This document shows, in pieces, positions 9,197 to 41,925 of a DNA stretch of 50,258 nucleotides. Each line of letters starts with the position of its first letter. The first letter of the stretch is position 1. Under the pieces are notes generated by a model. It worked only from the letters and a program-made list of their open reading frames with translations. It was not told where the DNA came from and did no database searches. Source of the DNA: Tardiphaga sp. (GTDB lineage: Bacteria > Pseudomonadota > Alphaproteobacteria > Rhizobiales > Xanthobacteraceae); assembly GCA_014377915.1 (NCBI GenBank), contig JACMOT010000548.1, positions 1-50,258 of the forward strand, in the 5' to 3' direction. The position numbers were made by a program, and so were the translations under genes.

Positions 9197-9204
9197 GATG
9201 CCGA

Positions 9205-27018: not shown

Positions 27019-27496
27019 GATACGTCGTCCTTTGAGATCGACGCCTGTCCACGTCACGGCATTGTACGCTTCCAAGACGTCACACCAAAGTCTGCGGCAA
27101 TCGACTTGTCGCGACCATAACGTCGCCATGCCCTATAATTTCAAGGCAAGCGAGCGCTAGTGATATGGTTGTATCGATCAAACTTTACACAAGCCAAGTA
27201 AATCGTTCTGGTGTTTTGCATTACGGCACTAATGGTATCTTGATCGCCCCATATGGTGCTAAAATACCTGCTATGATTTTGAAAAACTCCAGCACGAACT
27301 ATCATTCGCAAGATCCACATGCATGCATGATTTTCGATCATGATTGATTCGTCGGCAGATACGGATCGAGCGATCGCCAAGCCACATGTCATCTAACGGT
27401 CTGCTGAGGAATTCCGGTGCCGAGCGTCAAAACCGTGAATGGAACGCAGTCCAAACGGAATGGAACCGCGGCGGAATTGAGTTTTTTTGTGGACTT
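27019..27496. other. AT-rich intergenic region without a supported gene
   Basis: The 478 bases between the LysR start and the VanZ-like stop are noticeably AT-richer than the neighbours, mainly at 27130-27350. A nested ATGCATGCAT palindrome lies near 27319-27330. Short frames here have no ribosome sites or family features. It probably carries the LysR promoter; the composition hints at acquired or decayed DNA. Confidence 0.4.
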
Positions 27497-27889
27497 CTAG
27501 GCGGATTTTGTCGGCTTGCTATGTCTTCCGCGCTCTGAGAGGCCGAGCCAGAGGTTGATCAGAAGCGAGATACCGACGCCGACAGCGCCACCGACAAATT
27601 TGAGGAGAGCATCCGGAATCTCGCCGTGGCGGTCGGGCGTGAGGCGCTGCAGCGCCTCCAGCAGGAGCGCCGTGCCGACCACCAGGATCAATACCAGCCA
27701 GAAGCGTTTCGGATAGGCCACCCCGAACAGCAGGCCGACCAGAGCAAACGCGCCGAAGCGCTCGACGCCAACGCCGCCGATATGCGGGCGCAGGCCGATC
27801 GGCGACAGAGTCGCGAAAACAATGAAAGCGAGGGCGGCCCAAGCGAGCATGATGGCGGGTTTGCGGAACATGGCCGCTTCATAGCCCAT
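27497..27889 (-). CDS. VanZ-like small membrane protein
   Basis: The product is 130 residues, with an alternative ATG at 27871. Four hydrophobic helices are visible (WAALAFIVFATLSPIGLRP, the F-A-L-V-G-L-L-F-G segment, a W-L-V-L-I-L-V-V-G segment, and the VGGAVGVGISLLINLWLGL end). The pattern of ERFGAFALVGLLFG and LLEALQRLTPDRHGEIPDALLKFVGG is characteristic of the VanZ-like family (compare the E-x-Q-x-x-xPxRxxxxxD core). Function in the envelope is unknown. It lies downstream of the catabolic gene train on the same strand, separated by 79 bases. Confidence 0.8.
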   Translation of the reverse strand: MGYEAAMFRKPAIMLAWAALAFIVFATLSPIGLRPHIGGVGVERFGAFALVGLLFGVAYPKRFWLVLILVVGTALLLEALQRLTPDRHGEIPDALLKFVGGAVGVGISLLINLWLGLSERGRHSKPTKSA

Positions 27890-27968
27890 CTTCGACGTAC
27901 TGCCATTCCCGTTTTTGTAAAATTTGTCGTCGCGTTGGTAACGATTGCTGGCGCAAGGCGAACCACCA

Positions 27969-28607
27969 TCAGCGATCGCCGCGCGCCTGCCACGTCTCGA
28001 ACGTGTCCGGCTTGATCTCGAAGCGATCCTGCATCCGGGCATACATCGTTCCAGCGACGCGCCCGACCGGCAGATATTGCTCGTAATCGGTCCGCAGGGT
28101 CTCGGGATCGACGACACCGTCACGAACCTGGATTCCGAGAACCTCGCCGACCAATAGATCGCGTTCGGCGCCGAAATTCATCAACGTCACCTTGCGGCAT
28201 TCCAGCGCCGCCGGAGCGCCCGCGAGATGCGGAACGGCGACGTGAACCCCTGCGGCCATTGGTAGCTGCAACGCCTCGGGCTCGCCGACATCGGCGGGGA
28301 ACCCGATGGAGCAATCGACCATGGCGCCCGCCAGTGCCTCATCCACCATGTTGATGACGAACAGACCGTTGGCGCGGACGTTTCGTGTGGTGTCCTTCAG
28401 CGACAGGTCGGACTTTGCCTGCAGGCCAACAATCACCAGCGGCGGTTTTTCCGAGAACACGTTGAAAAACGAGAACGGCGCGGCGTTGACGATCCCGGCA
28501 TCGGAAATGGTGGTGATCAACGCGATCGGGCGCGGCACGACGAGGCCGCACAGCAGCTTGTAGCGCTGCGCGGCGCTGAGGGTGGCAAAATCGAAGTTGA
28601 TCGTCAT
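27969..28607 (-). CDS. Flavin reductase-like (DIM6/NTAB) FMN protein
   Basis: The product is 212 residues. The flavin reductase-like fold is indicated by VVPRPIALITTISDAGIVNAAP near the N-terminus, the PPLVIVGL strand, KDTTRNVRANGLFVINM (about 73-89) and the GRVAGTMYAR segment. Members bind FMN and either supply reduced flavin to a monooxygenase or are of unknown role. No flavin-dependent monooxygenase is in this gene train. It is the last metabolic gene of the train, 39 bases after the ACMSD-type amidohydrolase. Confidence 0.88.
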   Translation of the reverse strand: MTINFDFATLSAAQRYKLLCGLVVPRPIALITTISDAGIVNAAPFSFFNVFSEKPPLVIVGLQAKSDLSLKDTTRNVRANGLFVINMVDEALAGAMVDCSIGFPADVGEPEALQLPMAAGVHVAVPHLAGAPAALECRKVTLMNFGAERDLLVGEVLGIQVRDGVVDPETLRTDYEQYLPVGRVAGTMYARMQDRFEIKPDTFETWQARGDR

Positions 28608-28646
28608 CGCGACGGGGCTTTCTATGCGCGCCGCCGGAATGGGCGC

Positions 28647-29636
28647 TCAGGAAATCTTGAACAGTCGGCTGGCATTGCCGGATAGGATTTTTTCGCGGTC
28701 AATGTCCGACAGCTTCGCCTGCTTGACCAGCCCCACCGGATCCTGATCCCCCATGTCAAATGGATAATCCGACCCCATCATCACCCGGTCCGCACCAGCC
28801 ACGTCGACCAGCACCTCGATCAAATCGGCCGAGAACACGCAGGTGTCGAACCAGAGCCGCTTCAGATAGGTCGACGGCGGCTCGGCGATGAGCTTGCGCA
28901 GCTCGGGCCGCACCTTCCAGGCGTGATCCATGCGGCCGGTATAGAACGGCAGGAACCCGCCGCCATGGGCGACAACCACCTTGAGCTCGGGATGCCGGTC
29001 GAGCACACCGCCCATGATGAAATGCGAAATCGCGATGCCTTCCTCGACCGGCTGGCCGAGGCTGTTGACCATGAAGAAGTCGCCGAGGCGTTGGCCATGC
29101 GAGAACCCCAGCGGATGCACGAACAGCGGCGCGCCGAGCGTCGCCAGACGCGCGTAGAGCGGATCAAAAGCAGCGTCGGAGAGCTCGCGCTTCTCCACCC
29201 GCGTATCGATCTGGAAGCCACGCAGACCGAGCTGCTCGACGGCATGGACCGCTTCCTCGATGGCGCGGGCCGGAAACCGCATCGGCAGCGTGCCGATGCC
29301 AGCAAAATGCGCGGGGTCCTGCGCCACCAGCGCCGCGACATCCTCGTTCTGCACCCGCGACAGCGCGCCCTGCAGGTCCTGATCGGCCCAATAATGCTGC
29401 TGCGCCGGTGCCGGCGCTACCATCTGGAAATCGACGCCCATGCGCCGCATCACCTCGCGGCGCGTTGCGATGTCGAGCATCAGCTTCGGCAGCAGCTTGC
29501 CCTGCTCGGCATCGGTTTCGCGGCTCGCCGGCGACATGTCGCGCCGATAGGGATTTTCCATCGGATCGTAATGGCCGGTGACCAGCGGCTCGACGCGCTT
29601 GCTGATCGTGTGGGTGTGCATATCGATGACGCGCAT
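28647..29636 (-). CDS. ACMSD-type metal-dependent amidohydrolase/decarboxylase
   Basis: The product is 329 residues from the ATG at 29636. It is a TIM-barrel amidohydrolase of the amidohydrolase-2 (aminocarboxymuconate semialdehyde decarboxylase-like) group. His7 and His9 come from DMHTH, a further His from LFVHPLG, the FPELKVVVAHGGGFLP-type strand, and the catalytic Asp from GSDYPFD near the end. Family members perform non-oxidative decarboxylation or hydrolysis on ring-cleavage products. The gene starts 11 bases after the amidase stop, inside the catabolic train. Confidence 0.9.
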   Translation of the reverse strand: MRVIDMHTHTISKRVEPLVTGHYDPMENPYRRDMSPASRETDAEQGKLLPKLMLDIATRREVMRRMGVDFQMVAPAPAQQHYWADQDLQGALSRVQNEDVAALVAQDPAHFAGIGTLPMRFPARAIEEAVHAVEQLGLRGFQIDTRVEKRELSDAAFDPLYARLATLGAPLFVHPLGFSHGQRLGDFFMVNSLGQPVEEGIAISHFIMGGVLDRHPELKVVVAHGGGFLPFYTGRMDHAWKVRPELRKLIAEPPSTYLKRLWFDTCVFSADLIEVLVDVAGADRVMMGSDYPFDMGDQDPVGLVKQAKLSDIDREKILSGNASRLFKIS

Positions 29637-29647
29637 GGGATTCTGGC

Positions 29648-31033
29648 TCAGTTCAGTTCGGCGGCGGCCGGCACGCGGAGTTGCCAGTCGGTCGCGCCTT
29701 GATAGGCATGGGCGGCACGCAGGATGGCGGCCTCGGCATAGGGACGGCCGACGAGCTGAAAGCCGACAGGCATGCCAGCGGCATCGAAGCCGCAGGGCAC
29801 CGACGCCCCCGGCAGGCCGAGATAATTGATGCCGCGGGTGCAGTGGGTGAGCTGGCCAATGACGCCGGCGACGTCTGCCGGGGCGCCTTCGGTGGTGGCC
29901 TTGATGGTCGGAACCGGAATCGAGAGCGTTGGCAGCAACGCCAGGTCTGCCGCCCCCATGCACGACGCGATCCACTGCTCGGAGATCTGCGCGCGCAGCG
30001 ACAGCGCCTCGACATAGCGCGTCGCCGGATAGAACAGGCCTGGCTCGATCCGCGAACGCACCTGGTCGGCATAATCCTGCGGCCGCTCGATCAGCCAGCG
30101 GCGATGAATGGTGGCGGCCTCCACGCTCATCAGCACCTGCATCAGCGCATTGATGATCGCCATGTCCGGCGGCGCGGTTTCGATGATGGTGACGCCAAGT
30201 GTCCTGAAGGTTTTCACCGCCTCGTCCAGCCGTGCCGCGATCACCGGATCGAGCCGTTCGCGATAATAGCCACCGGGGATCGCCACCGTCAGGCCGGCGA
30301 CGCCGTCGCCGATCGTCGCCTCGTAATCGCGGCCGGCGATCACCGAGAGCAGGCGTGCGGCGTCGCGCGCGGTGCGCGCCAGCGGCCCGGTGCAATCCAG
30401 CGACGCCGACAGCGGCATCACGCCATCGGTCGGCACCAGCCCCCAGGTTGGCTTCAGCCCGACCAGCCCGCACATCGCGCCGGGATGGCGCAACGAACCG
30501 CCGGTATCGGTACCGAGCGAACCAGCCACCAGCCGCGCGGCAACGGCGACGCCCGAACCGGAGGACGAGCCGCCCGGAACATGCGCCGGATTCCACGGAT
30601 TGAGCGCGTGGCCGTGATGTTCGTTGTAGCCGGTCGGGCTCATCGCGAATTCAGCCAGCTGCAGCCGGCCGAGGTCAAGTGCGCCCGACGCATCGAGGCG
30701 CGACATCACGGTCGCGGTGACGTCGGCGCGGAAATCGGCCCGGATCTTTGAGCCGCCTGCCGATAGATCGCCAGCACGATAGAACAGGTCCTTATGCGCC
30801 AGCGGCACGCCGTGCAGCGGCGACAGCCGTGCGCCACCGCGGCGCAGCTTGTCGGCGTCCTCCGCCGCTTCCAGCGCACGGGCGCCGTCGAGCCGCACCA
30901 CGGCATTCAGCTTGCGGCCGACGGTTTCGAGCCGCCGCAGCGCCACGGTGGTCGCAGCGACCGACGTGACCTCGCCGGTGGCAATGGCATCGGCAAGCGC
31001 GCAGAGGTCAAGAGCCGCTATGGAATTTTCCAT
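29648..31033 (-). CDS. Amidase-signature hydrolase (AtzE/GatA type)
   Basis: The product is 461 residues with the amidase-signature Ser-cisSer-Lys triad: Lys81 (PLAHKD), the cis-Ser within GGSSSGSG (156-158) and nucleophile Ser180 (GTDTGGS). The start ATG overlaps the stop of the tiny upstream gene as TGATG. That small protein looks like an AtzG/GatC-type partner, which points to the AtzE (1-carboxybiuret hydrolase) and GatA side of the family rather than stand-alone amidases. Likely hydrolyses an acyl-urea, carbamoyl or amide intermediate in the pathway served by the neighbouring Liv-type importer. Confidence 0.92.
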   Translation of the reverse strand: MENSIAALDLCALADAIATGEVTSVAATTVALRRLETVGRKLNAVVRLDGARALEAAEDADKLRRGGARLSPLHGVPLAHKDLFYRAGDLSAGGSKIRADFRADVTATVMSRLDASGALDLGRLQLAEFAMSPTGYNEHHGHALNPWNPAHVPGGSSSGSGVAVAARLVAGSLGTDTGGSLRHPGAMCGLVGLKPTWGLVPTDGVMPLSASLDCTGPLARTARDAARLLSVIAGRDYEATIGDGVAGLTVAIPGGYYRERLDPVIAARLDEAVKTFRTLGVTIIETAPPDMAIINALMQVLMSVEAATIHRRWLIERPQDYADQVRSRIEPGLFYPATRYVEALSLRAQISEQWIASCMGAADLALLPTLSIPVPTIKATTEGAPADVAGVIGQLTHCTRGINYLGLPGASVPCGFDAAGMPVGFQLVGRPYAEAAILRAAHAYQGATDWQLRVPAAAELN

Positions 31034-31230
31034 CAGGTGCGGTCCGCGGCGGCGAGCCAGCTCTGAAAGCCGTAGGGCGAGGAATCGAACGGCAGGCTTT
31101 GAACCGACTCCGCCGCGATGCGGTTGTTGTTCTCTTCGACCAGCGTCTTCAGGCGTCCGACGCGCCCGGCGGCCCGCGGCGCGCCATTCAGTTCGGCGGC
31201 AATGCCGCGCAACAGAGCTTCATCCATCAT
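31033..31230 (-). CDS. AtzG/GatC-like small amidase partner
   Basis: Sixty-five residues from the ATG at 31230. A GTG at 31239 that overlaps the livF stop as GTGA would add three residues. The N-terminal half is helical (DEALLRGIAAELNG, GRLKTLVEENNNRIAAE); the C-terminal half is an extended SLPFDSSPYGF segment. This is the layout of AtzG (DUF4089) and GatC: a helix pair followed by a chain that wraps around the amidase. Position immediately before, and overlapping, the amidase gene supports this. Sequence identity is low, so the call rests on size, layout and context. Confidence 0.62.
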   Translation of the reverse strand: MMDEALLRGIAAELNGAPRAAGRVGRLKTLVEENNNRIAAESVQSLPFDSSPYGFQSWLAAADRT

Positions 31231-31235
31231 ATTTC

Positions 31236-31940
31236 TCACTGCACGCCAAGGCGCTGGAACAACAGGTCGGTCTGCTGGCTCAATTCTTTCGCGTCACCCT
31301 GATGCACGATCTGCCCGGTCTCCAGGATGTAGACCCGATCGGCGACAGCCAGCGCGCTGTACAGGTTCTGTTCGACCAGCAGGATCGACAGTCCCTCGCG
31401 CTTGAGATCGAGGATGATCTCCTCAAGATGCTGCACCATCACCGGCGCCAGGCCTTCGGAGGGCTCATCCATCAGGATCAGCTGCGGATCGATCATCAGC
31501 GCGCGCCCCACGGCCAGCATGCCGCGTTCGCCCCCGGACAATTGCCCGCCGCGGTGATGGCGGCGCTCCTTGAGCCGTGGAAAGATTCCGAACACGCGAT
31601 CGATGGTCCAGCCATCCTTGGCCCGCGGGCTCTTCAGCATCGTCAGATGCTCGGTCACGGTCAGCGACGGAAACAGCCGGCGGCCCTGCGGCACGATGGC
31701 GATCTTTCGCGCGGCGATGTCGTGCGGCTTCATCCCGACCAGATTCTCGCCGCGCCACGTAATGGTGCCGGAGCGGATCTGCGGCGGCACCAGCCCCATG
31801 ATCGAACGGATGAAGGTGGTCTTGCCCATGCCGTTGCGGCCGAGCAACGCCACGATCTCACCGGGGGCAACCTCAAGCGAGACGCCGCGCACCACGATCG
31901 CCTCGCCATAGCCGCTGTGCAGATCCCTGACCTCAAGCAT
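31236..31940 (-). CDS. livF: Branched-chain amino acid-type ABC transporter ATPase LivF
   Basis: The product is 234 residues. Walker A is GRNGMGKTT (about 34-42), the signature is LSGGERGM (about 134-141), and Walker B is LILMDEPSEGL (about 154-164). The end of the sequence (VYILETGQIVHQGDAKEL) is typical of LivF. It overlaps livG by 8 bases. LivF-family ATPases serve importers of amino acids and also of amides, urea and aromatic acids; the surrounding hydrolases make a non-amino-acid substrate likely. Confidence 0.94.
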   Translation of the reverse strand: MLEVRDLHSGYGEAIVVRGVSLEVAPGEIVALLGRNGMGKTTFIRSIMGLVPPQIRSGTITWRGENLVGMKPHDIAARKIAIVPQGRRLFPSLTVTEHLTMLKSPRAKDGWTIDRVFGIFPRLKERRHHRGGQLSGGERGMLAVGRALMIDPQLILMDEPSEGLAPVMVQHLEEIILDLKREGLSILLVEQNLYSALAVADRVYILETGQIVHQGDAKELSQQTDLLFQRLGVQ

Positions 31941-32688
31941 GACGCGGCTTCCCGAGATAGACTTCCTGGACCTGGCTGTTACGACGGATACCTTCCGGCG
32001 GCTGCTCGACCAGCACCCGGCCCTCGAACATGCAGGTGACGTAATCGACCAGGCCGAGCGCCAGGTCCATGTCGTGCTCGATCAGCACCACGGTGATGTC
32101 GCGGCTGAGCGAGCGGATCACCTCCGCGATCATCGAGCGCTCCGATGGCGACAGCCCGGCGGCGGGCTCGTCCAGCAGCAGCATGGTTGGCGTGGTGACC
32201 AGCGAAATCGCGATCTCGAGCTGGCGCTGCTCGCCATAGGACATTTCCTTGACGATGACATTCGCACGCTCGCCGATACGGGCGGCGGTCAGCGCGGCGG
32301 CAATGCGCGGCGCCTCGGTGGCATCGGTATCGGACGAGCCGAACAGCGAGAATTTCCGCGGGCTGAGGCCGCGCAGCGCCAGGATCATGTTGTCCTGCAC
32401 GGTCAACGTCGGAAACAGGTTGGTGATCTGAAAAGTCCGCGAGATGCCGAGCTGCGCGCGGCGGTGCGGCGGCAGTCGTGTCACATCATGCCCGTCGAAC
32501 AGGATCTTGCCGGAGGTCGGCGGCACCGCGCCAGCGATGGCATTGAACAGCGTGGTCTTGCCGGCCCCGTTGGGGCCGATGATGGCGCGACGCTGCCCGC
32601 GCGGCACGGTCAGGCTGACGCCATCGACCGCCCGCAAGGCGTCGAAGGCCACCACCACATCGGTCAGAGTCAGGATCGGTTCGGACAC
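31933..32688 (-). CDS. livG: Branched-chain amino acid-type ABC transporter ATPase LivG
   Basis: The product is 251 residues with a GTG start at 32688. Walker A is GPNGAGKTT (about 38-46); the signature region is SYGEQRQLEIA (about 145-155), with the Liv-type GEQR rather than SGGQ. Walker B is MLLLDEPAAGL. The LivG-specific insert after Walker A (VPPTSGKILFDGHDVT, GISRTFQ) is present. A complex palindromic element separates it from the binding-protein gene upstream. Confidence 0.94.
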   Translation of the reverse strand: MSEPILTLTDVVVAFDALRAVDGVSLTVPRGQRRAIIGPNGAGKTTLFNAIAGAVPPTSGKILFDGHDVTRLPPHRRAQLGISRTFQITNLFPTLTVQDNMILALRGLSPRKFSLFGSSDTDATEAPRIAAALTAARIGERANVIVKEMSYGEQRQLEIAISLVTTPTMLLLDEPAAGLSPSERSMIAEVIRSLSRDITVVLIEHDMDLALGLVDYVTCMFEGRVLVEQPPEGIRRNSQVQEVYLGKPRHA

Positions 32689-32734
32689 AGATAATTCCTA
32701 GAAATCGATCCATCAGGATCGGAGCATTTTCAGT

Positions 32735-32896
32735 CTTGTCCCGGACGCGTTGCGGCATTTCAGGCGATGCACTTGCATCGCCGCAATGCCGCTCCGCAGA
32801 GCCGGGACCGTAACAGGCGCCGGAGTTTGTGAAGGTCCCGGCTCTGCAGTGCACTACGCCCCCTGCGGAGGCGCAGTTCACTGCGTCCGGGACAAG
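32735..32896. repeat. Nested mosaic palindromic element between livK and livG
   Basis: Outer 14-bp arms CTTGTCCCGGACGC (32735-32748) and GCGTCCGGGACAAG (32883-32896) are perfect inverted repeats. Inside lies a second perfect pair, GCAGAGCCGGGACC (32796-32809) and GGTCCCGGCTCTGC (32834-32847). Between the left arms is GGCGATGCA/TGCATCGCC (32763-32771, 32774-32782), flanked by GCGGCATT/AATGCCGC. The whole folds into a branched structure. It resembles the intergenic mosaic or MITE-like repeats of rhizobial genomes. In the operon it could stabilise the upstream binding-protein mRNA or reduce read-through into livG. Confidence 0.8.
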
Positions 32897-32910
32897 CAAG
32901 CGACGATTAA

Positions 32911-34170
32911 TCAGGCCTTCTTGATGCCCTGGAAGGTGCGCGAATAAGGCGGCTGCTTCATGTAGGTTTCCGGATCGTACTTCCAGAACTGCGACACTTC
33001 CGGATAGGTCTGGATCGGCACGTTCCAGAACTTTCCGTCGGCACGCTTCACCACCTTGCGGATGTAGACGTCATAGACCGGGTTGCCATAGGCATCGAAC
33101 TTCACGGTCTTGCCGAGCGGCGAACCGTCGAGTTCGGTCTTCAGCACGGTCTCGATGAAGGCCTCGCGGTCCTCGACCTTGCCGCCCACCTTCTTCAGCG
33201 CCGCATCGATCCACATCATGCCCGAGAACATCGAGAAGCCGTACAGCGACGGGATCTTGCTGTACTTGGTTTCATAGTCCTTGACGAACTTCGCGGTGAC
33301 CGCGTTGTCCGAACCTTCGGCGAAATGCGCCGGCGCGATAATGCCCTCGCAATCCTCGCCGAGGGTACGGATCACCGACTGGTCGGTGGCGTTCATCGCG
33401 GCGATCAGCGGCGTCTTCGCCTTCAGGCCGAACGCGGCATATTGCTGGAAGAAGCGTGTGGCGTCGGCGCCGGTTTCCATCGCGAAGACGGCATCGAGCT
33501 TCATCTCGGCGATCTGGCCGAGATAGGGGCTGAAGTCCGCGGTGTTCAACGGATGCCAGAACTGCTGCACGATCGTGCCGCCGCCCTCGGTGAACACCTG
33601 GGCGAGGCCGCCGCACTGCTCATGGCCGAACGTATAGTCCTGGCTGATCGTGGCGATGCGCTTGTAGCCCTGCTTCAGGCACCAGTCGCCGAGCGGATGG
33701 GTGAAGGCACTGGCGGTGTAGCCGGCGACGCGGATCACGTTCTTGATGCGCGCCCGCTGGGTCAGGTCATCCGCCGCGATGATCGGAATGAAATACGGGG
33801 TGCCGGTGCCCTTGACGTAATTGGCGACGGCGAGGCCGGTATTGGCCAGCAGATTGCCGATCAGCATGTGGCAATTGCCCTGCTCGACCAGGCGGCGGGC
33901 CTTCTGCAGCGCGGTGTCGGGGTTCGAGGCGTCGTCCTCGATCACCAGCTCGACCTTGCGTCCGCCCATCTCGTTCTTGACGGAATCCAGATAGAATTGC
34001 ACGCCCTCGACCATTTCCTTGCCGCCGGAGGCGACCACGCCGGTCAGCGGCGCCAGCAGGCCGATCTTGATCGGGCCGGCCTGCGCCGACGCGTGATGCC
34101 AGGGCGCGGTGCCGATGCCGGCCGCCGCGAAGGCTGCCGTGGAATTCTTCAGAAATTGCCTGCGGTCCAT
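32911..34170 (-). CDS. livK: Liv-type ABC substrate-binding protein
   Basis: The product is 419 residues from the ATG at 34170 (AAAGGATAT upstream). The N-terminus MDRRQFLKNSTAAFAAAG is a twin-arginine signal, cleaved near ASA. The mature protein begins GPIKIGLLAPLTG and contains LVIEDDASNPDTALQKARRL, the periplasmic-binding type I layout of LivK, AmiC and urea- or aromatic-binding relatives. Export by Tat rather than Sec is common for this family in rhizobia. The ligand is unknown; the operon's amide and C-C hydrolases suggest an amide-containing heterocycle. Confidence 0.92.
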   Translation of the reverse strand: MDRRQFLKNSTAAFAAAGIGTAPWHHASAQAGPIKIGLLAPLTGVVASGGKEMVEGVQFYLDSVKNEMGGRKVELVIEDDASNPDTALQKARRLVEQGNCHMLIGNLLANTGLAVANYVKGTGTPYFIPIIAADDLTQRARIKNVIRVAGYTASAFTHPLGDWCLKQGYKRIATISQDYTFGHEQCGGLAQVFTEGGGTIVQQFWHPLNTADFSPYLGQIAEMKLDAVFAMETGADATRFFQQYAAFGLKAKTPLIAAMNATDQSVIRTLGEDCEGIIAPAHFAEGSDNAVTAKFVKDYETKYSKIPSLYGFSMFSGMMWIDAALKKVGGKVEDREAFIETVLKTELDGSPLGKTVKFDAYGNPVYDVYIRKVVKRADGKFWNVPIQTYPEVSQFWKYDPETYMKQPPYSRTFQGIKKA

Positions 34171-34198
34171 CTCGATATCCTTTCGGGGAAGCATTCGA

Positions 34199-35161
34199 TT
34201 AACGCACCTTGCGTGACAACATGCCGCGCAGCTTGCCTATGATGCCCTCGGGGGCAAAAATCATGATCAGAACGAAGGTGAGGCCGAGTACCATCTGCCA
34301 GCGCTCGGTATAGGCGCTGACCGTGTTCTCCAGAGCGATGATGGCCGCGGCGCCGACGAAGGCACCGAACAGGGTGCCGACGCCGCCGACAATGGCCATC
34401 AGCACGCCTTCGACCGATTGCGCCAGCGCCACCGTGGAGGGCGAAACGAAGTTGTTGAACATGGCATAAAGCGCACCGGCGACGCCGGCAAAAAAGCCGG
34501 ACACCGTGAAGCCGATGAACAGATGCAGCGGCACATTGTAGCCGAGGCTGCGCATCCGGCTTTCGCTGTCGCGGATGCCGCGCAGCGTCAGACCGAATGG
34601 CGAGCGCACGAAACGCCACATCGCAAACGACACCACCGTCGCGCCGGCCAGCACCGCCCAGTAGAACGCGCTGTGCGCCATCAGTATCACCGGCCGCACA
34701 TCGGCGCGCATGCCGTTCTCGCCGCCGGTCACTTGTGTCCAGCGCAGGCAGACGCCCCACACGATCATGCCAAGCGCCAGCGTCAGCAGCAGGAAATAGA
34801 CGCCGGAGGTGCGCACCGCGAGCAGCGCGAAGATCGAGGCGACGATGGTGGCAGCGACAACGCCGAGCGCGAAGGCCGCGACCGGCGACATTCCCATCTG
34901 TGCCGTGCAATAGACGACGACATAGGTGGAGACCCCGAAGATGGCGCCGTGGCCGAGCGAGGTACGCCCGGCGAAGCCGGCCAGGATATCGATCGACATC
35001 GCCAGGATTCCGAAGATCAGCATCTCGGTGACGAGACCGACCTGGTAGTTCGACAGCACCAGCGGCAAAGCGGCCGCCATGGCGACGACAAGGCCCGCGA
35101 TTAAAGCGGCGCGGCCGCTCATGCCGGCGAGACGAGAGGATTTTGGCGTGGGCGACGTCAT
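34199..35161 (-). CDS. livM: Liv-type ABC permease LivM
   Basis: An integral inner-membrane protein of 320 residues with about nine hydrophobic helices. LivM hallmarks are AGFAGRTSLGHGAIFGVSTY (about 64-83), the LRGIRDSESRMRSLGYNV coupling loop (about 196-213) and the VEGVLMAIVGGVGTLFGAFVG segment (about 249-270). It starts with an ATGA overlap on the livH stop and is followed 28 bases later by livK. Confidence 0.94.
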   Translation of the reverse strand: MTSPTPKSSRLAGMSGRAALIAGLVVAMAAALPLVLSNYQVGLVTEMLIFGILAMSIDILAGFAGRTSLGHGAIFGVSTYVVVYCTAQMGMSPVAAFALGVVAATIVASIFALLAVRTSGVYFLLLTLALGMIVWGVCLRWTQVTGGENGMRADVRPVILMAHSAFYWAVLAGATVVSFAMWRFVRSPFGLTLRGIRDSESRMRSLGYNVPLHLFIGFTVSGFFAGVAGALYAMFNNFVSPSTVALAQSVEGVLMAIVGGVGTLFGAFVGAAAIIALENTVSAYTERWQMVLGLTFVLIMIFAPEGIIGKLRGMLSRKVR

Positions 35162-36009
35162 GTGGCACGTCCGAACAGGCCGAGCGGACGGAATGCCAGC
35201 AGCACCGCCATCGGGCCGAAAATGACAAAGTAGGCCAGCTCCGGAAACATCACCTGCCCCAGCGTATTGAGCAGGCCGACCAGCAGGCTGCCGACCGCGA
35301 CACCGACCAGGCTGCCGCGACCGCCGATGATCACCACCGCGAGGCTGAAGGTCAGGATTTCGGCGTCGGCGGAGGGATAAAGCGACAGGAAGGCGCCGCC
35401 CATCAGGCCGCCGAGCCCGGCCAGCGCCGATCCGAACAGGAAGGTGAAGAGGAAGACGCGCTGGATGTTGACGCCGGAGGCCTCGACCATTTCGGCGTCG
35501 TCAACGCCGGCGCGGATCAGGGCGCCCAGCCGGGTGCGATTGAGCAGCAGCCAGAGTCCGACGAACACCACGATCCCGGTCACCAGCACGAACAACCGAT
35601 AGGTCGGATAGAACGTGCCGAACACCTTCATGCCGCCCCGCAGCAATTGCGGGATCGGCACCGTGAAACTGTCGCCGCCAAAGATCACCAGCGACAGATC
35701 ATTCAGGAAGAAGGCGACGCCCAGCGTCAGCAGTACCTGGCGCAGCTCGTTGCCGCGGACGAATCGCAGCAGGCCCTGGTCGAGCACAAAGCCGATCGCG
35801 GCGATCGCCAGCATCGCGCCGATGCCGCCGAGCACGAAGCTGCCGGTATAGGTCGCGACCGTATAGCCAACATAGCCACCGAACAGATAGAGCGCACCAT
35901 GGGCCAGGTTGACGATCCGCAACAGGCCGAAGATCAACGTGAAGCCGCTGGCCACCACGAACAGCAGCGCCGCGAAGGTCAGGCCGTTGAGGATTTGAAA
36001 GAAGCTCAT
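35158..36009 (-). CDS. livH: Liv-type ABC permease LivH
   Basis: The product is 283 residues, almost entirely hydrophobic helices. It shows the LivH elements FTLIFGLLRIVNLAHGALYLFGGY (in order, about 23-46), GALIRAGVDDAEMVEASGVN (coupling loop) and GGLMGGAFLSLYPSADAEI. It starts 12 bases after the deacetylase-like gene and overlaps livM by 4 bases, so the hydrolases and transporter are one transcriptional unit. Confidence 0.94.
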   Translation of the reverse strand: MSFFQILNGLTFAALLFVVASGFTLIFGLLRIVNLAHGALYLFGGYVGYTVATYTGSFVLGGIGAMLAIAAIGFVLDQGLLRFVRGNELRQVLLTLGVAFFLNDLSLVIFGGDSFTVPIPQLLRGGMKVFGTFYPTYRLFVLVTGIVVFVGLWLLLNRTRLGALIRAGVDDAEMVEASGVNIQRVFLFTFLFGSALAGLGGLMGGAFLSLYPSADAEILTFSLAVVIIGGRGSLVGVAVGSLLVGLLNTLGQVMFPELAYFVIFGPMAVLLAFRPLGLFGRAT

Positions 36010-36021
36010 TCCTGATCTTGC

Positions 36022-36900
36022 CTATGGTGCCGCTGGACCGACCGTGAGGTACCAGTCCAGAATCTGCTCGCCGGTCATGAAGACCACATCCGATTTCTGC
36101 TGGATGGTTTCGAAGATGCGGCGGAAATGCTTCAGGCGATGCGGTGCGCCCATGATGTAGGGATGCACAACCAGTGCCATGATCCGGGCTGAATCGACTG
36201 AGTCTTCATAAATCTGCTCGAACTGGTCGATGGCCCGGTCGTAATATTCGGATGCCTTGTGGTGCTGGATCAGCATCATCGCGACGTCGTTGCATTCCTG
36301 CGTATAGGGGACGTTGACGATCGGCGTCGTGGTGGTCTTCAGCCATACCGGCTGGTCGTCGAGCACCCAGTCGGCGACATAGTCGTAGCCTTCGAGCTTC
36401 AACAGATCCGGGGTTTCCCAGGTCTCGGTCAGGCCAGGACCGAGCCAGCCGCGCGGCCGCTTGCCGGTAGCGGCCTCGATCACATCGGCGGTCTTGCGGA
36501 TGTCGTCGCGCTCGTTCTCGACCTTCTGCATGTTGCGCTGGGTGAAGCCGTGCCCCATGAATTCCCAGTTGCGCGCCTTCGCCGCGTCCACGATCGGCGG
36601 ATAGGCGGCGATCGCCGCGCCGTTGATCGCCAGCGCCGCCGGAATTTTGTAGTCGTCGAACACTTTCAGCAGGCGCCAGAACCCGACGCGATTGCCGTAT
36701 TCGTGCCAGGCCCAGTTCGGAATGTCCGGCGTCGGCGAGCCGCCCGCCGGCGGCGTCAGCACGGTACGCGGCATGGTCTGCGTCGCATCCCATTCCTCGA
36801 CATTGACGATTACCCACACCGCCATGCGGTTGCCATTCGGCAGCTTGAGCGGCGCGCGCGTCGCGATCGGCGAATAGGCAATACGTTCGGTCGGCAGCAT
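36022..36900 (-). CDS. PuuE-type polysaccharide-deacetylase-fold hydrolase, copy 1
   Basis: The product is 292 residues; the ATG at 36900 overlaps the upstream FAH-type stop as TGATG. The NodB-like fold is seen in VIVNVEEWD (about 28-36), WAWHEYGNRVGFWRLL (about 62-77), EFMGHGFTQRN, RPRGWLGPGLTETWETP and the final VVHPYIMG. This layout matches PuuE-type allantoinases and related ring-amide hydrolases rather than sugar deacetylases. A paralogue lies at 37607-38506. I infer ring-opening of a cyclic amide, imide or ureide; the true substrate is open. Confidence 0.85.
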   Translation of the reverse strand: MLPTERIAYSPIATRAPLKLPNGNRMAVWVIVNVEEWDATQTMPRTVLTPPAGGSPTPDIPNWAWHEYGNRVGFWRLLKVFDDYKIPAALAINGAAIAAYPPIVDAAKARNWEFMGHGFTQRNMQKVENERDDIRKTADVIEAATGKRPRGWLGPGLTETWETPDLLKLEGYDYVADWVLDDQPVWLKTTTTPIVNVPYTQECNDVAMMLIQHHKASEYYDRAIDQFEQIYEDSVDSARIMALVVHPYIMGAPHRLKHFRRIFETIQQKSDVVFMTGEQILDWYLTVGPAAP

Positions 36901-37610
36901 CAATAGGGCTCCGGCGAGGTGATGGTGATACCGAGTGACGGCAGCCCCTCGATGCGGGCGTCGATCACGTCGCCGGGCACGATCGGACCGACGCCGGCGG
37001 GGGTGCCGGTATAAATCAGATCGCCCGGCTCGAGCTTCATCTGCTGCGACAGCTGCGCCACGATTTCCGGCACGGTCCAGATCATCTGGCCGATGTCGCC
37101 GCGCTGCTTTTCGATGCCATTGACCGACAGCGTGATGGCGCAGCCACTGAAGTGCCGGGCGTCGCGCGCCGGCGCGATCGCGCCACACGGCGCGGACGCA
37201 TCAAAACTCTTGCCGGCTTCCCACGGCAGCTTGAGGTCACGCGCCTCGCGCTGACGGTCGCGGCGGGTCAGATCGATGCCAACCGCATAGCCCCAGATAT
37301 ATTCCAGCGCTTCCTCGGCATCGATGTTGCGCCCGGCACGGCCGATCGCGATCACCAGCTCGACCTCGAACTGGAAATCGTCGGTAAAGGGAGGATACGG
37401 CACGCGCGAACCATCCGGCACCACGGAATCACGTGGCTCCTGGAAAAAGAACGGCGGATCGCGCTCGTCTGCCTCGCCCATCTCACGAATATGGTCGAGA
37501 TAGTTGCGGCCGACGCAGTAGACGCGGCGCACCGGAAAAAAGCCGCCACCCACCACCGGCACGCCGGTGACGGGAATGGCGCGGAGCATCTGCTGCGAGG
37601 TCACGTTCAC
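36900..37610 (-). CDS. Fumarylacetoacetate hydrolase-family protein
   Basis: The product is 236 residues from a GTG at 37610 that overlaps the upstream stop as GTGA; the frame extends further 5' only as shadow. FAH-fold motifs are RVYCVGRNYLDHIREMG (about 30-46), PPFFFQEP, the metal ligands in FEVELVIAIG (about 81-90) and a later Asp in GYAVGIDLTRRDRQ, and the ending GDLIYTGTPAGVGP. The family cleaves C-C bonds in beta-diketo acids or decarboxylates and hydrolyses acylpyruvates. It lies between the two deacetylase-fold genes, with overlaps on both sides. Confidence 0.9.
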   Translation of the reverse strand: MNVTSQQMLRAIPVTGVPVVGGGFFPVRRVYCVGRNYLDHIREMGEADERDPPFFFQEPRDSVVPDGSRVPYPPFTDDFQFEVELVIAIGRAGRNIDAEEALEYIWGYAVGIDLTRRDRQREARDLKLPWEAGKSFDASAPCGAIAPARDARHFSGCAITLSVNGIEKQRGDIGQMIWTVPEIVAQLSQQMKLEPGDLIYTGTPAGVGPIVPGDVIDARIEGLPSLGITITSPEPY

Positions 37611-38506
37611 GCCCCGGATTCCATCTCGGCCTTCTGGCCCTGGTACCAGTCGAGGATCTGCTCGCCGTTCCAATGCACGACGCCTTCGTGCTGGTTGAAA
37701 TAGTCGTAGAGCTCTTCGAGATATTTGATACGGAATGGCTGGCCGGAGATGTAGGGGTGGATCGCCAGCGACACGATCTTCGGACGCTCGGCGCTCTCCA
37801 GGTACAGCCGGTCGAAGGTGTCGATCGCCCGCTTCTTGAAATGGTCGCTCTCGTGGTGCTGCACCATCATCATCGGGATGTCGTTCAACTCCACCGTATA
37901 GGGCAGCGTCACCAGCGGGCCCTTGGCGGTGTTGATGGTGGTCGGCTCATCGTCATAGACCCAGTCGCCGATATATTTGACGCCAGCCTCGGCAAGATAT
38001 TCCGGCGTGTCCAGCGTCTGCGTCAGGCCGGGTCCGAGCCAGCCCACCGGGCGCTTGCCGGTGAAATTCTCGATCACGTTCATGGCGCGGTCGATCATCG
38101 CCCGCTGGTCCGGCTCCTTGTGAATGGGGCCCTGCTCATAGGCGTGGCCCATGAATTCCCAGCCGGCATCCTTGGCGGCCTGGGCCACGCGCGGATAATC
38201 CTCGCAGACCCGGGCGTTGATCGACAGCGTCGGCGCGATGCCATGCTTCTTGTAGAGGTCGAAGAAGCGCCAGACACCGACGCGCATGCCGTATTCGTGC
38301 CAGCTCCAGTTCGGCACGTCGGGCAGCAGCGCCACGCCGGTCGGCGCCGGGATCACCTGCCGTGCCATCGGCTTGGCAATGTCCCAGACTTCCAGATTGA
38401 CGATGGTCCAGATGATGATCTTGGCGCCGCCGGGCAGCTTCATCCTGGGGCGGTCGACAATCGCGGAATAGTCGCAGCGTTCGCGCGGAAGCATGGGGCC
38501 GGTCAT
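37607..38506 (-). CDS. PuuE-type polysaccharide-deacetylase-fold hydrolase, copy 2
   Basis: The product is 299 residues from the ATG at 38506 (AAAGGGAA upstream). It matches copy 1 along its length: IVNLEVWD, WSWHEYGMRVGVWRFF, EFMGHAYEQGP, RPVGWLGPGLTQTLDTPEYL, LAIHPYISGQP and NGEQILDWY. The two copies have diverged substantially, which suggests two different ring or amide substrates, or a heteromer, rather than a recent duplication. It begins the second half of the train, 111 bases after the isochorismatase-type gene; that gap could hold a secondary promoter. Confidence 0.85.
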   Translation of the reverse strand: MTGPMLPRERCDYSAIVDRPRMKLPGGAKIIIWTIVNLEVWDIAKPMARQVIPAPTGVALLPDVPNWSWHEYGMRVGVWRFFDLYKKHGIAPTLSINARVCEDYPRVAQAAKDAGWEFMGHAYEQGPIHKEPDQRAMIDRAMNVIENFTGKRPVGWLGPGLTQTLDTPEYLAEAGVKYIGDWVYDDEPTTINTAKGPLVTLPYTVELNDIPMMMVQHHESDHFKKRAIDTFDRLYLESAERPKIVSLAIHPYISGQPFRIKYLEELYDYFNQHEGVVHWNGEQILDWYQGQKAEMESGA

Positions 38507-38617
38507 GGGTTGGTTCCCTTTGGGGTGATATTGTTTGGATGGATCACGCCGCCTTGGCGGTGACGATCCGCGGAACGCGCGAGTGCCGATGCCGCGGACA
38601 GTTCGCGGCGAGAGGCT

Positions 38618-39280
38618 TCAACCATGGGCAGCAGCCTTGTTCGCAGCCAAACCGTCCAGTTTCATCACCGCGTCGGTGTCCATCACCAGGCCAAAGGCGG
38701 TGCGGATGCAGGCCAGACCCGCTTCATGCAGCGCCGGCCCATCCATGCTGTCGACGCAGTCCTCGACCACGATCACCGCGTAATCCCGTACGTTGGCCGC
38801 CGTGGTGGTTGCCAGCACGCAGGAATTGGTGTTCACGCCGGTGATCAGGAGCGTGTTGATGCGGTGCGAGCGCAGCAGGAAATCGAGATCGGTGCCGAGA
38901 AAGCAGTCGTAGCGCTTCTTGGTATCGACGATGAAATCGCGGGGATCGAGCAGATCCGGCATCACCGTGCAGCCTGGGCCGCCGGCGATGTTGTGGCGCA
39001 TCACGTTTTTGCGCGTCGCCCGCGGATCTTCCGCGCGGGTCCGCCAGAACGGGTTGGCGCGAATTTCCTTTGCGTCGCGATAGGACGTGACCTGATGGAT
39101 CACCGGAATGTCGACTGAGCGACACCAGTCAAACAATCGCTTGTTGGCCGCGATGATCCTTGTCGCCACATCCGGCGTGGTCGGCATCGTTGCGACCGAC
39201 ATGTCGAGATGACCGCGATGCAGGTCGATCGCGACGACGGCAGCCTTGATGTGTTCAACGCCGAGATTCATGATCATCAT
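38618..39280 (-). CDS. Isochorismatase-type cysteine amidohydrolase
   Basis: The product is 220 residues; the ATG at 39280 overlaps the upstream stop as ATGA, and ATGs at 39277 and 39271 also fit. The catalytic trio is visible: Asp19 (VAIDLHRG), Lys121 (DTKKRYDCF) and Cys154 (GVNTNSCVLAT), with the cis-peptide ITGVNT. The family includes N-carbamoylsarcosine amidase, RutB ureidoacrylate amidohydrolase, nicotinamidase and maleamate amidohydrolase. In this operon it is a good candidate for releasing ammonia or carbamate from a ring-opened intermediate. Confidence 0.92.
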   Translation of the reverse strand: MMIMNLGVEHIKAAVVAIDLHRGHLDMSVATMPTTPDVATRIIAANKRLFDWCRSVDIPVIHQVTSYRDAKEIRANPFWRTRAEDPRATRKNVMRHNIAGGPGCTVMPDLLDPRDFIVDTKKRYDCFLGTDLDFLLRSHRINTLLITGVNTNSCVLATTTAANVRDYAVIVVEDCVDSMDGPALHEAGLACIRTAFGLVMDTDAVMKLDGLAANKAAAHG

Positions 39281-40518
39281 ACCAGCGGGTTGAACGAAGT
39301 CTTGAGCAGCGCACGCTGATCGATCCCGAACTTGTCGGCAAGCCAGTCGGCCAGCACCTCCTGCCCGATGGTCGGGTTGTCATGCTGGCAATGCTCGGCA
39401 CCGGTCTCATCCGGTTCGAGCACGCGCATCGTGGCATCGACGCCGTTGGCAATGGCATGATCATAGGTAGAGCGCGCCGCGGTCACCGTCAGCACGTCGT
39501 GGCCGCCATGCAGCACCAGATAGGGACACTTCATATGCTCGAGATGGCCCTTCAGGGTGAACGGCTTCATTAATTCATGCGCATCCTTCATGGTCTTGAC
39601 GCCAAACACCCAGCGGATGTGCATCGCCAGCCCGAAATCGTCGCCCTTCTGGCCCCACATGTCGTGAACCGACCATACCGCGCCATGCGAGATCGTCGCC
39701 GCCAACCGCGGCTCGTAGCAGCCGGCGCGCGCGGCATAGTAGCCGCCCATGCTGGAGCCACACACCGCGATCTTGGAGGCGTCGACATCGGCGCGCCGCG
39801 CCAGCCAGTCGATGCATTTGCCGACCGGCACTTCGGAATCGGCGCGGGTGGTAAGACCATGACGTCGCAGCGTACCGCCCTGACCGGGCAGATCGACCAT
39901 CAGCACCGAGATGCCGCGTTGCAGACAGCCATGGGCCTGCATGAACCACATCTCATCCTTGATGGAATCGAGGCCACCCATGCAGATCAGCACTGGCAAT
40001 TTCTTGCCGGAAAACGGGGCGCGGATGAAATAGCCGCACATCGGCTTGCCGTCCTCGTACGGGATGTCGACCACTTCGCCGGGCGGATTGAGATAGGAAA
40101 TGAATTTGTGCGAGCAGGCCTCCATCTTCTCGAAGGTCGGCAGCCGGCGCGGGTCGATCGGCTCGAGGTGGAATTCGGCCTGGCGGTAGTAGTCGGCGGC
40201 ACGGAGGAAGCAGTTCATCGCGGTGCGGATGTGACCGAGCTTTTCCTCGGCCAGGCCGCGCTGCCAATTGTTATCGGCAATCACCATCCATTCCTTGTGC
40301 CAGCTCTCGAAATCGCCGGGGATCATTCGGGATCCCGCCAGCATGATCTCGCTGACGCTGCCGCCACCTTCCTGGCTTTCGCCGAGGCCGCGGCGAAACT
40401 GGTAGGCCAGCCAGGGGTGCTCCGGCCAGTGATGCCATCCGAATGGCTCGTAATGCGGGCCGCGATCGGCGGTGATCTCCTCGATCGCGTTTTCGTTGAT
40501 GGGCTTCACGGCTGCCAT
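39277..40518 (-). CDS. Alpha/beta hydrolase, 2,6-dihydroxypseudooxynicotine-hydrolase-like
   Basis: The product is 413 residues from the ATG at 40518. It has a helical N-terminal region (about 1-150; a cap involving WHKEWMVIADNNWQRG) and a C-terminal alpha/beta-hydrolase domain. The nucleophile is Ser256 in GSSMGG; the acid is Asp341 (HGGHD) and the base is His376 or His379 (AEHCQHDN). This layout is that of the C-C bond hydrolase of nicotine degradation and related esterases. It is the first gene of the train, facing the GntR regulator across 229 bases. Probable role is C-C or ester cleavage of the imported compound or a metabolite. Confidence 0.87.
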   Translation of the reverse strand: MAAVKPINENAIEEITADRGPHYEPFGWHHWPEHPWLAYQFRRGLGESQEGGGSVSEIMLAGSRMIPGDFESWHKEWMVIADNNWQRGLAEEKLGHIRTAMNCFLRAADYYRQAEFHLEPIDPRRLPTFEKMEACSHKFISYLNPPGEVVDIPYEDGKPMCGYFIRAPFSGKKLPVLICMGGLDSIKDEMWFMQAHGCLQRGISVLMVDLPGQGGTLRRHGLTTRADSEVPVGKCIDWLARRADVDASKIAVCGSSMGGYYAARAGCYEPRLAATISHGAVWSVHDMWGQKGDDFGLAMHIRWVFGVKTMKDAHELMKPFTLKGHLEHMKCPYLVLHGGHDVLTVTAARSTYDHAIANGVDATMRVLEPDETGAEHCQHDNPTIGQEVLADWLADKFGIDQRALLKTSFNPLV

Positions 40519-40747
40519 GGACGTACACACCTCTAGCTTCGTTAGGGTGCGTGCATCTTTGCGATACAAGGCCGGGAGTCAACGACAATTACATACACTT
40601 TATCCGCAGCACACCATTTAAGCGTCACGCTCTATTTTTAGGCGGCATTTTTTGCCAGATAAATAGCGCTTTCTTGTTGTGGGAAAAATGTCCAGACTGA
40701 AGTAAATCGAAACTGTATTCACTCGTCCGGTCCGGGAGGACTATCTG
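40519..40747. promoter_or_regulatory. Divergent promoter region of the catabolic train and its GntR regulator
   Basis: These 229 bases between divergent starts are AT-rich at about 40590-40720. They contain GATACAAG (40561-40568), ATACAC (40594-40599) and TGTATTCAC near 40712-40720, short sequences that could be half-sites for the GntR protein. A strong GGGAGG ribosome site (40733-40738) precedes the regulator. No operator can be assigned with certainty from a single sequence. Confidence 0.45.
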
Positions 40748-41500
40748 ATGCTTGATCCGTCCGTCCCGCCCGAAGCTTCCGCGCTGATCCGCGCTGGCAA
40801 TCGCTCGCTATCCGTCATGGATCATATCCGCGAGGCGATCCTGAACGGCTCGGTCAGCGCCGGAGAACGCATCAACGAGGTCCGGGTCAGCAAAACACTG
40901 GCGGTTTCCCGGACGCCAGTCCGCGCCGCGCTACAGGCGCTGGCAGGCGAAGGCTTGCTGGACTATGCGCCGAACCGGGGCTTCACGGTGCGCGAGTTTC
41001 CGCTGGATGCGATCGTCGACGCCTATGAAATCCGTGCTTCGCTGGAAGGCGTGGCCGCCCGCTTCGCGGCCGAGCGCGGGCTGAGCACCGAGGAACGCGC
41101 CGTCATCGAACAAAGCCTCGCCGCCGGCGACAGACTGCTGGCGCGAGGCACGCTGGAATCCGGCGACATCACGATCTATCGCGACATCAACGGCGACTTC
41201 CACGACGCACTGCTGCTCGCCGCCCGCAACCGCATGCTCGCGGAGATGATCCGGATCTGCCACCATGTCCCGGTGTCGTCGAGCCGCAACATTGTCGTGT
41301 TCGAATATCGCGACGTCCGCCGCCGCCATGACGACCACCATCGCATTTTCGAGGCCATTCTGGCGCAAGAGCCGCACCGCGCGGAAATGCTGATGCGCGA
41401 GCACGTCTCCGGCGTGAAGGCGTCGCTGGTGAGGTCGCTTACCGGGCATGATGCCAGCACAAACCGGGTCAATCGCCCGGTGCCCGCGGCGACCGAATAG
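40748..41500 (+). CDS. GntR family regulator, FCD subfamily
   Basis: The product is 250 residues. The winged helix-turn-helix covers about 20-88 (VMDHIREAILNGSVSAGERI, VSRTPVRAALQALAGEGLL). The helical FCD ligand-binding domain covers about 95-225 (YEIRASLEGVAARFAAERG, with Asp/His metal-site residues in INGDFHDALL and DDHHRIFEAI). Such regulators usually repress a divergent catabolic operon and respond to a substrate or intermediate, here probably the 40518-27969 train. A tRNA-Arg gene follows on the opposite strand. Confidence 0.93.
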   Translation: MLDPSVPPEASALIRAGNRSLSVMDHIREAILNGSVSAGERINEVRVSKTLAVSRTPVRAALQALAGEGLLDYAPNRGFTVREFPLDAIVDAYEIRASLEGVAARFAAERGLSTEERAVIEQSLAAGDRLLARGTLESGDITIYRDINGDFHDALLLAARNRMLAEMIRICHHVPVSSSRNIVVFEYRDVRRRHDDHHRIFEAILAQEPHRAEMLMREHVSGVKASLVRSLTGHDASTNRVNRPVPAATE

Positions 41501-41625
41501 CAATACGGTCTATAAACCCGAGTTGCTGGCCCGGCCCGCCATCCGGAGCCTCGCGGCTGAATTCGGCTTCGCCAGGCGCGCACAAACGCACTTCGAAACT
41601 GGCTATGCCGCTAAGGCTGGAAAGA

Positions 41626-41702
41626 TGGCGATCCCGGCATGACTCGAACATGCGACCTACGGTTTAGGAAACCGTCGCTCTATCCGGCTGAGCTACGGGA
41701 CC
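41626..41702 (-). tRNA. tRNA-Arg (anticodon CCT)
   Basis: The minus strand from 41702 reads GGTCCCGTAGCTCAGCCGG, the usual acceptor and D-arm start. The anticodon arm is ACGGT-TTCCTAA-ACCGT with anticodon CCT, and the T arm is GCATGTTCGAGTCATGC. The acceptor stem closes seven pairs with CGGGATC, and G-CCA is encoded at the 3' end. tRNA genes are common integration sites; the disturbed DNA to its right is noted separately. Confidence 0.95.
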
Positions 41703-41925
41703 GCGAACCCGCGCGATGAGCGGGCACATCGGAAATTGCATACCAGAGCTCTGGCGATATCGCCAGCCCACGACAGCGATGTCGCCACGTTTCTGCCATC
41801 GGCAAGCGCCGCGCCCAGCGACCTCATACCGGTTTGAAGACCCCTGCCGTCCATGCTCGGAACATGGGGCGCGGCGCGAGTTCGCCCATCATCATTTGAG
41901 AACCCCGTCGAAAAGAAGAGGCTCG

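Follow-up and report, generated by a model that had tools for sequence, protein, structure and literature searches.

A conserved hydrolase and transporter gene cluster of Tardiphaga and its relatives, probably for the breakdown of a small cyclic nitrogen compound

In Aspergillus nidulans, the breakdown of nicotinate involves HxnM, an imide hydrolase of a family related to the PuuE-like proteins considered below, and the amide hydrolase HxnN (PMC9304392): a hydrolase of the deacetylase fold opens a cyclic imide, and the amide hydrolase frees ammonia. Genes of both kinds occur in a 50,258-nucleotide stretch of DNA from Tardiphaga sp. (contig JACMOT010000548.1; this whole stretch is here called the window), in a train of fourteen genes at positions 27969-40518 that also encodes a Liv-type ABC importer. 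The fungal route differs by its redox steps, and no genes of the Liv, FAH, ABH or ISO kinds (defined below) belong to it as described in the available part of that report (PMC9304392). Ring-nitrogen catabolism is, mainly by association, the best supported reading of this train, and we put at about 0.6 the probability that it is an operon dedicated to the catabolism of a small cyclic nitrogen compound and under local regulation; the compound would most likely be a cyclic imide or lactam and may derive from an N-heteroaromatic ring. The reading is based on a core gene order kept across genera, an operator-like palindrome, conserved residues in both PuuE-like proteins, amide-hydrolase and molybdenum-hydroxylase neighbours, and the nearness of ABH to a hydrolase of nicotine breakdown. 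The genes and sites concerned are:

40748..41500, plus strand: GntR/FCD regulator, divergent from the operon; GntR 50.2 bits, FCD 70.1 bits, under all NCBIfam regulator cut-offs
40711..40724, minus strand: operator-like site 1, GAGTGAATACAGTT, close to the start of GntR; agrees with the consensus at 11/14 positions (P about 0.09 by shuffling when taken alone), aligning with the conserved site of relatives
40587..40600, minus strand: operator-like site 2, AAGTGTATGTAATT, 68 nt upstream of the ABH start codon; the same in all 19 aligned sequences (17 distinct loci)
40577..40582, minus strand: TTGACT, a -35-like hexamer beside site 2, candidate promoter element; TTGAC invariant in the same 19 sequences
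39277..40518, minus strand: ABH, FrsA-like alpha/beta hydrolase; PF06500, nearest PDB 2jbw, GSSMG, HGGHD and EHCQHD motifs
38618..39280, minus strand: ISO, isochorismatase-type cysteine hydrolase; PF00857, Asp, Lys and Cys motifs
37607..38506, minus strand: PuuE1, PuuE-like polysaccharide-deacetylase-fold hydrolase; PF01522 (Polysacc_deac_1)
36900..37604, minus strand: FAH, fumarylacetoacetate-hydrolase-family protein; PF01557 (FAA_hydrolase) 205.8 bits, family motifs
36022..36900, minus strand: PuuE2, second PuuE-like hydrolase; PF01522 (Polysacc_deac_1)
35158..36009, minus strand: LivH permease; PF02653 (BPD_transp_2)
34199..35161, minus strand: LivM permease; PF02653 (BPD_transp_2)
32911..34194, minus strand: LivK substrate-binding protein, carrying RRQFLK, a Tat-type motif; PF13458 (Peripla_BP_6), nearest PDB 4zpj, 4ey3, 4evq
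31933..32688, minus strand: LivG ATPase; PF00005 (ABC_tran)
31236..31940, minus strand: LivF ATPase; PF00005 (ABC_tran)
31033..31230, minus strand: conserved 65-residue small protein, its stop overlapping the amidase start; open reading frame (ORF) in 18/19 LivF-amidase junctions, no Pfam match
29648..31033, minus strand: amidase-signature amidase; PF01425 295.7 bits, Lys and Ser motifs, below the AtzE cut-offs
28647..29636, minus strand: ACMSD-like amidohydrolase-2; PF04909 (Amidohydro_2), nearest PDB ACMSD 4igm (E 1.5e-50), metal-ligand motifs
27969..28607, minus strand: flavin-reductase-domain protein, peripheral; PF01613 (Flavin_Reduct), in 4/24 ABH-bearing loci

All fourteen ORFs lie on one strand, and their order in reading direction is ABH, ISO, PuuE1, FAH, PuuE2, LivH, LivM, LivK, LivG, LivF, small ORF, amidase, ACMSD-like, flavin reductase. 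Five of the 13 junctions overlap (ABH/ISO and LivH/LivM by 4 nt, FAH/PuuE2 and small ORF/amidase by 1 nt, LivG/LivF by 8 nt), short gaps occur at PuuE1/FAH (2 nt), PuuE2/LivH (12), LivM/LivK (4), LivF/small ORF (5), amidase/ACMSD-like (11) and ACMSD-like/flavin reductase (39), and the largest gaps are 222 nt at LivK/LivG and 111 nt at ISO/PuuE1. The fourteen-gene hydrolase and transporter train proposed in the first-pass annotation is confirmed at this level, as is its divergent FCD-type GntR gene. Its six different hydrolases are six genes but only five families, Polysacc_deac_1 occurring twice, and the start first read for the ACMSD-like gene has been corrected to 29636.

The core of the train is conserved. 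Representative genomes were scanned with PuuE2, and the best 80 of at least 584 relatives were taken as loci, the closest among these 80 being that of a Tardiphaga metagenome-assembled genome at 93% identity; 24 of the 80 bear ABH at 70% identity or more, two of these (L002 and L029) being 12-kb contigs. In the 24 ABH-bearing loci, PuuE2 and LivH are found 24 times, LivM 23, LivK, LivG and LivF 22 each, GntR 21, and ISO and FAH 20 each; PuuE1 (at least 70% identity) is present in 20 by a table without overlapping matches, another count of 22 being one that can include PuuE2 cross-matches. The amidase occurs in 14 of these loci, the ACMSD-like gene in 10 and the flavin reductase in 4. The conserved unit in relatives is GntR and, divergent from it, ABH-ISO-PuuE1-FAH-PuuE2-LivHMKGF, while the 3' end (small ORF, amidase, ACMSD-like, flavin reductase) is modular, so that the fourteen genes do not constitute one fixed unit as first supposed. 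Carriers belong to Tardiphaga, Bradyrhizobium, Pseudolabrys, Azorhizobium, Aquabacter, Beijerinckia and the betaproteobacterium Limnohabitans, and because the same order recurs in other genera, it is not due to chance. Breakdown into unrelated pieces among relatives had been named beforehand as the outcome that would speak against the cluster; on examination, the core was found together across genera. Pairwise identities of FAH, PuuE2, LivH, LivM, LivK and LivF correlate at 0.86-0.94 over 25 loci, values that shared ancestry, which is uncontrolled, may explain.

An even sample of the Tardiphaga family has ABH at E 1e-120 or better in 31/296 genomes, 22 of them at 75-94% identity and nine with relatives at 60-67%. 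Eight of these nine have a locus, with no other core gene nearby in those eight; G008, one of the nine, has the cluster without a close ABH (L069). Around 23 ABH loci (at least 70% identity, about 4 kb each) from the two family scans, GntR is found 18 times, ISO 19 and PuuE1 (at least 60%) 19. ABH matches in the Limnohabitans family come from 1/299 genomes, hits in the Tardiphaga class from 1/385 at E 1e-190 and PuuE2 matches in the Limnohabitans class from 1/369 at E 1e-130, in each case the query genome itself; from these family and class samples, the cluster is therefore concentrated in one family and rare elsewhere. Variants are common at the edges: among the tabulated loci of the PuuE2 scan an HpcH/HpaI aldolase gene is found in 11 and an ALDH gene in 5, and OsmC-, DAO- and PrpB-like genes join a few clusters. 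A reduced form, GntR divergent from FAH-PuuE2 and lacking Liv genes, is seen in L072 and L077, and plasmids of Variovorax and Streptomyces carry FAH-PuuE-MFS-SafE-aminohydrolase sets whose PuuE proteins are 73% and 69% identical to PuuE2, respectively. PuuE pairs with a different Liv importer, some with an amidase, are found mainly in Pseudolabrys. ABH relatives also occur in other surroundings: L124-L127 and L130 lack PuuE but hold pairs of them (62-68% identity), the two members being separated by about 4-5 kb in which an ABC-ATPase gene lies, and L119 and L123 have ABH/FAH-type genes beside a gene of the acetamidase/formamidase family, together with a different ABC transporter and another PuuE relative. 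Three ABH plasmid regions that were opened, one of them unannotated, contained no such cluster.

The gap between the GntR gene and the operon contains a conserved palindrome, about AAGTGTATACACTT. The stretch from GntR to the first operon gene was taken from 54 loci, which gave 44 non-identical sequences including that of the window, with some loci fetched twice (at least L004/L088, L006/L089, L024/L105 and L053/L107). In 40 of the 44 the best match to AWRTGTATACAYTW is at least 12/14, the consensus being derived from these same sequences and the control being a mononucleotide shuffle; window site 1 (P about 0.09), L009, L010 and L037 match at only 11/14. Site 2, AAGTGTATGTAATT followed by TTGAC, is invariant in the 19 aligned Tardiphaga-Bradyrhizobium sequences. 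In 14 genomes picked for having the cluster, the 14-mer of site 2 stands just upstream of the operon in all 14, and elsewhere in them there are one exact copy and three with one mismatch (three for the reversed control pattern). In ten other cluster genomes RTGTATACAY is found at 16 places (control 7), and in nine of the ten one of these places is at the cluster. A palindrome that lies at the cluster and is nearly unique in the genomes suggests local, dedicated regulation, and the pattern fits an autoregulated repressor with essentially one target, acting through this putative operator. The GntR and FCD domains and the palindrome in the shared intergenic region are all present, which upholds the earlier view of a separately regulated unit. 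Such a conserved operator would be a direct handle for finding the inducer.

Seven extra palindrome sites were fetched, none with cluster hydrolases, and a scattered regulon was rejected, since tblastn with the cluster proteins at these sites returned only a GntR match of 36% identity (L179) and weak Liv matches of 25-35% (L185). L179 carries two RTGTATACAY copies, at 6001 and 7900, near this GntR gene and a gene that by eye is GcvT-like. A riboswitch search of positions 27000-42000 gave only a tRNA at gathering score.

PuuE1 and PuuE2 are 44% identical to each other, and their nearest PDB entries are the PuuE allantoinases 3cl6 and 1z7a, in which the second metal His is likewise missing. Identity with PuuE allantoinase was rejected: PuuE1 scores 115 bits and PuuE2 130 bits against TIGR03212, whose cut-off is 424.6, and in contrast to the allantoinases the window proteins have Gln in place of Trp and no urate-pathway neighbours were seen around them. 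The metal-type cyclic imide hydrolases also differ: HpPgdA, a relative of HxnM, binds its metal by Asp14, His86 and His90, that is, by Asp and a His-x3-His motif, according to the available part of its description (PMC3084791), whereas the window proteins read GHAYEQ and GHGFTQ, with Gln at the place of the second His. This Gln is at least 98% conserved in 69 PuuE1 and 87 PuuE2 sequences, and so are the first His, Asn-Asp and the C-terminal His. Because Gln replaces the second His while these other residues are kept, both proteins look active and metal-independent, as PuuE is; that they hydrolyse cyclic imides is suggested by gene context. In five distant tandem pairs (L188, L189, L191, L193 and L194; the organisms are Terrarubrum, Arthrobacter, B. 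plantarii, Agrobacterium and Salipiger) the second partner lacks one or both conserved His, its PuuE-likeness coming partly from alignment, as that of L189 has no Pfam match and that of L188 is just below the cut-off. Such pairs could be heteromers with a non-catalytic subunit.

The remaining enzymes appear intact. ABH is nearest to 2jbw, the 2,6-dihydroxypseudooxynicotine (DHPON) hydrolase; the similarity is remote (E 9e-26), and the Ser-Asp-His catalytic motifs align. In Arthrobacter nicotine breakdown this hydrolase acts along with 6-hydroxypseudooxynicotine dehydrogenase (7dqx), which is also the best PDB match (E 2e-12) of a molybdenum subunit in the Limnohabitans cluster; however, other molybdenum enzymes score close behind 7dqx and no nicotine-specific gene was seen. 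To our knowledge, PuuE, ISO and FAH are no part of the Arthrobacter pathway. ISO, FAH, the amidase and the ACMSD-like enzyme keep what we take to be the motifs of their families. For ISO the best NCBIfam models are biuret hydrolase (BiuH) and RutB, and both identities were set aside at scores of 65.9 (cut-off 370) and 58.6 (cut-off 377.95), while FAH scores with HpaG-type models below cut-off.

AtzE and AtzG of cyanurate breakdown offer a parallel to the amidase end, in that a small ORF overlaps an amidase of the AtzE kind, but the window amidase stays far under the AtzE cut-offs (251.2 vs 425.75 and 265.6 vs 461) and the small protein is not AtzG-like: it has no PF13318 match and an hhalign probability of 0.15% against AtzG segments, and AtzG identity was rejected. 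Among 21 LivF-amidase junctions, 19 of them distinct (L134 repeats L078, and L137 repeats L024), an ORF of about 61-80 residues is found in 18 of the 19 and is absent in Limnohabitans. The alignment of 18 rows (the window and 17 loci, with the ORF of L015 left out) has a single invariant Pro. A Pfam scan of the small protein gave no family match, and a profile search found 30 homologues among 7990 scored candidates, hypothetical where named. In eight relatives the PF13318 genes are located outside the cluster. Three small proteins encoded next to amidases in L188, L193 and L194 were also searched with the profile; the best E among the three was 0.0047, which is not convincing. The small ORF is thus not recognisable as the amidase small subunit it had been taken for; judged by its position, it may still be a partner of the amidase.

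The neighbours of related genes support amide and N-heterocycle chemistry, as the first-pass annotation had proposed. Of 542 plasmid records matching PuuE1, 30 were listed and 14 chosen and opened, and one of these was unannotated; among the 13 annotated regions, ten have a PuuE gene with an amide-type hydrolase gene no more than 5 kb away (for an amidase, asparaginase, isochorismatase, N-carbamoylsarcosine amidohydrolase or nitrilase), a figure that stands without a background count. In L188, L191 and L194 ISO immediately precedes the PuuE pair; L189 has, all on one strand, genes for a molybdenum hydroxylase of three subunits and for an asparaginase together with two genes of the PuuE type, and in L191 the genes for a large and a small aconitase-type subunit and for an isocitrate-lyase/PEP-mutase are divergent to ISO-PuuE-PuuE. 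Within the cluster family itself, L078/L134 and L070/L135 have molybdenum-hydroxylase domains after the amidase or the ACMSD-like gene; those of L078/L134 are Fer2 and MoCoBD, with MoCoBD divided between two ORFs. The proposed amide/N-heterocycle pathway is partly supported: by the conserved core, the palindrome and these neighbours, but not as a fixed fourteen-gene unit and not with an amidase subunit.

Based on this, we infer the following reactions, with their order, substrate class and repression. The Liv-type importer would take up a cyclic nitrogen compound, the PuuE-like hydrolases would open its ring at a C-N bond, and ISO, with the amidase where present, would hydrolyse the resulting amides to release ammonia. 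The ACMSD-like enzyme would then decarboxylate, and ABH and FAH would cleave C-C bonds to give small acids, while the GntR/FCD protein would bind the palindromes between the two transcripts until released by the substrate or an intermediate. We speculate further, with clearly low confidence, that the core is an undescribed general catabolic module, in which metal-independent PuuE-like hydrolases, in distant relatives often paired with a degenerate partner, open cyclic imides whose natural forms would include substituted maleimides, such as those from tetrapyrrole decay; PuuE would yield a half-amide and ISO a substituted maleate, which enzymes of the aconitase and isocitrate-lyase types, like those beside ISO-PuuE-PuuE in L191, would then hydrate and cleave at a C-C bond. 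If the operon does serve cyclic nitrogen compounds, it represents an unrecognised ring-nitrogen route common to soil and plant-associated Xanthobacteraceae and at least one Limnohabitans, with a reduced FAH-PuuE form on Variovorax and Streptomyces plasmids, and it would give a function to a large protein group now labelled allantoinase or polysaccharide deacetylase; at least 8000 candidates match PuuE1 at E 0.001 (8000 of 8000 scored). A literature search, as judged from titles and the starts of abstracts, found no description of this gene set, most subscription papers and bioRxiv preprints lying outside it.

Several observations weigh against ring-nitrogen catabolism. PuuE2 stands without any other cluster gene in 20 of the 80 loci (six of these under 8 kb), many of which adjoin ATP-synthase genes and plain transporters; molybdenum-hydroxylase genes adjoin only 2 of 25 complete clusters; and three of the 13 plasmid regions (L082, L187, L197), again without a background count, have no amide hydrolase near PuuE. 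No substrate can be read from models, because none of the ten cluster proteins scanned against NCBIfam reaches an equivalog cut-off. The PDB relatives of LivK fit an aromatic ligand equally well: 4ey3 and 4evq, which with 4zpj are its nearest entries, are proteins that we take to bind aromatic acids. This last point favours a route without ring opening at nitrogen, where an aromatic acid or amide enters by way of LivK, linear amides are hydrolysed by the PuuE-like proteins and the amidases, and FAH, ABH and the ACMSD-like enzyme act as in meta-cleavage. The HpaG-type scores of FAH, the HpaI-type aldolase and ALDH genes of some clusters and the ACMSD-like enzyme itself agree with such a route, but the clusters examined showed no recognisable gene for a ring-cleaving dioxygenase, and two PuuE-type genes plus several amide hydrolases exceed its needs; we consider it unlikely.

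We equally doubt that the substrate is a cyclic ureide (hydantoin, or a pyrimidine or purine product), whose ring the PuuE-like enzymes would open and whose carbamoyl group ISO would remove, with the amidase working as in cyanurate breakdown. The allantoinase, biuret hydrolase and RutB relationships that suggest this are all far under cut-off, and although the FAH-PuuE form of Variovorax and Streptomyces is accompanied by a heterocycle-deaminase-type aminohydrolase, genes of the urate, hydantoinase or urea kinds were not seen in the window region, and ABH, FAH and the ACMSD-like enzyme have no obvious place in such a pathway. Very improbable, in our view, is that the Liv genes are transcribed apart from the hydrolase genes and are simply their neighbours. 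The gaps of 222 and 111 nt, the variable 3' genes and the relatives in which FAH-PuuE or ABH genes have an MFS or another transporter next to them could be taken that way, but every Liv gene accompanies ABH in 22-24 of the 24 loci (the short contigs L002 and L029 included), and every tabulated variant with both PuuE2 and the amidase has the Liv genes between the two.

Two further features of the window were observed. A tRNA-Arg (CCT) at 41626-41702 on the minus strand adjoins the GntR gene, and one is also found near the cluster in L001, L003, L004 and L006; it is a possible insertion point. Far from the train, positions 6592-11180 hold genes for a D-2-hydroxyacid dehydrogenase and for an ABC transporter of the NMT1 type, together with a divergent gene of the creatininase family, perhaps a second cluster for a nitrogen compound.

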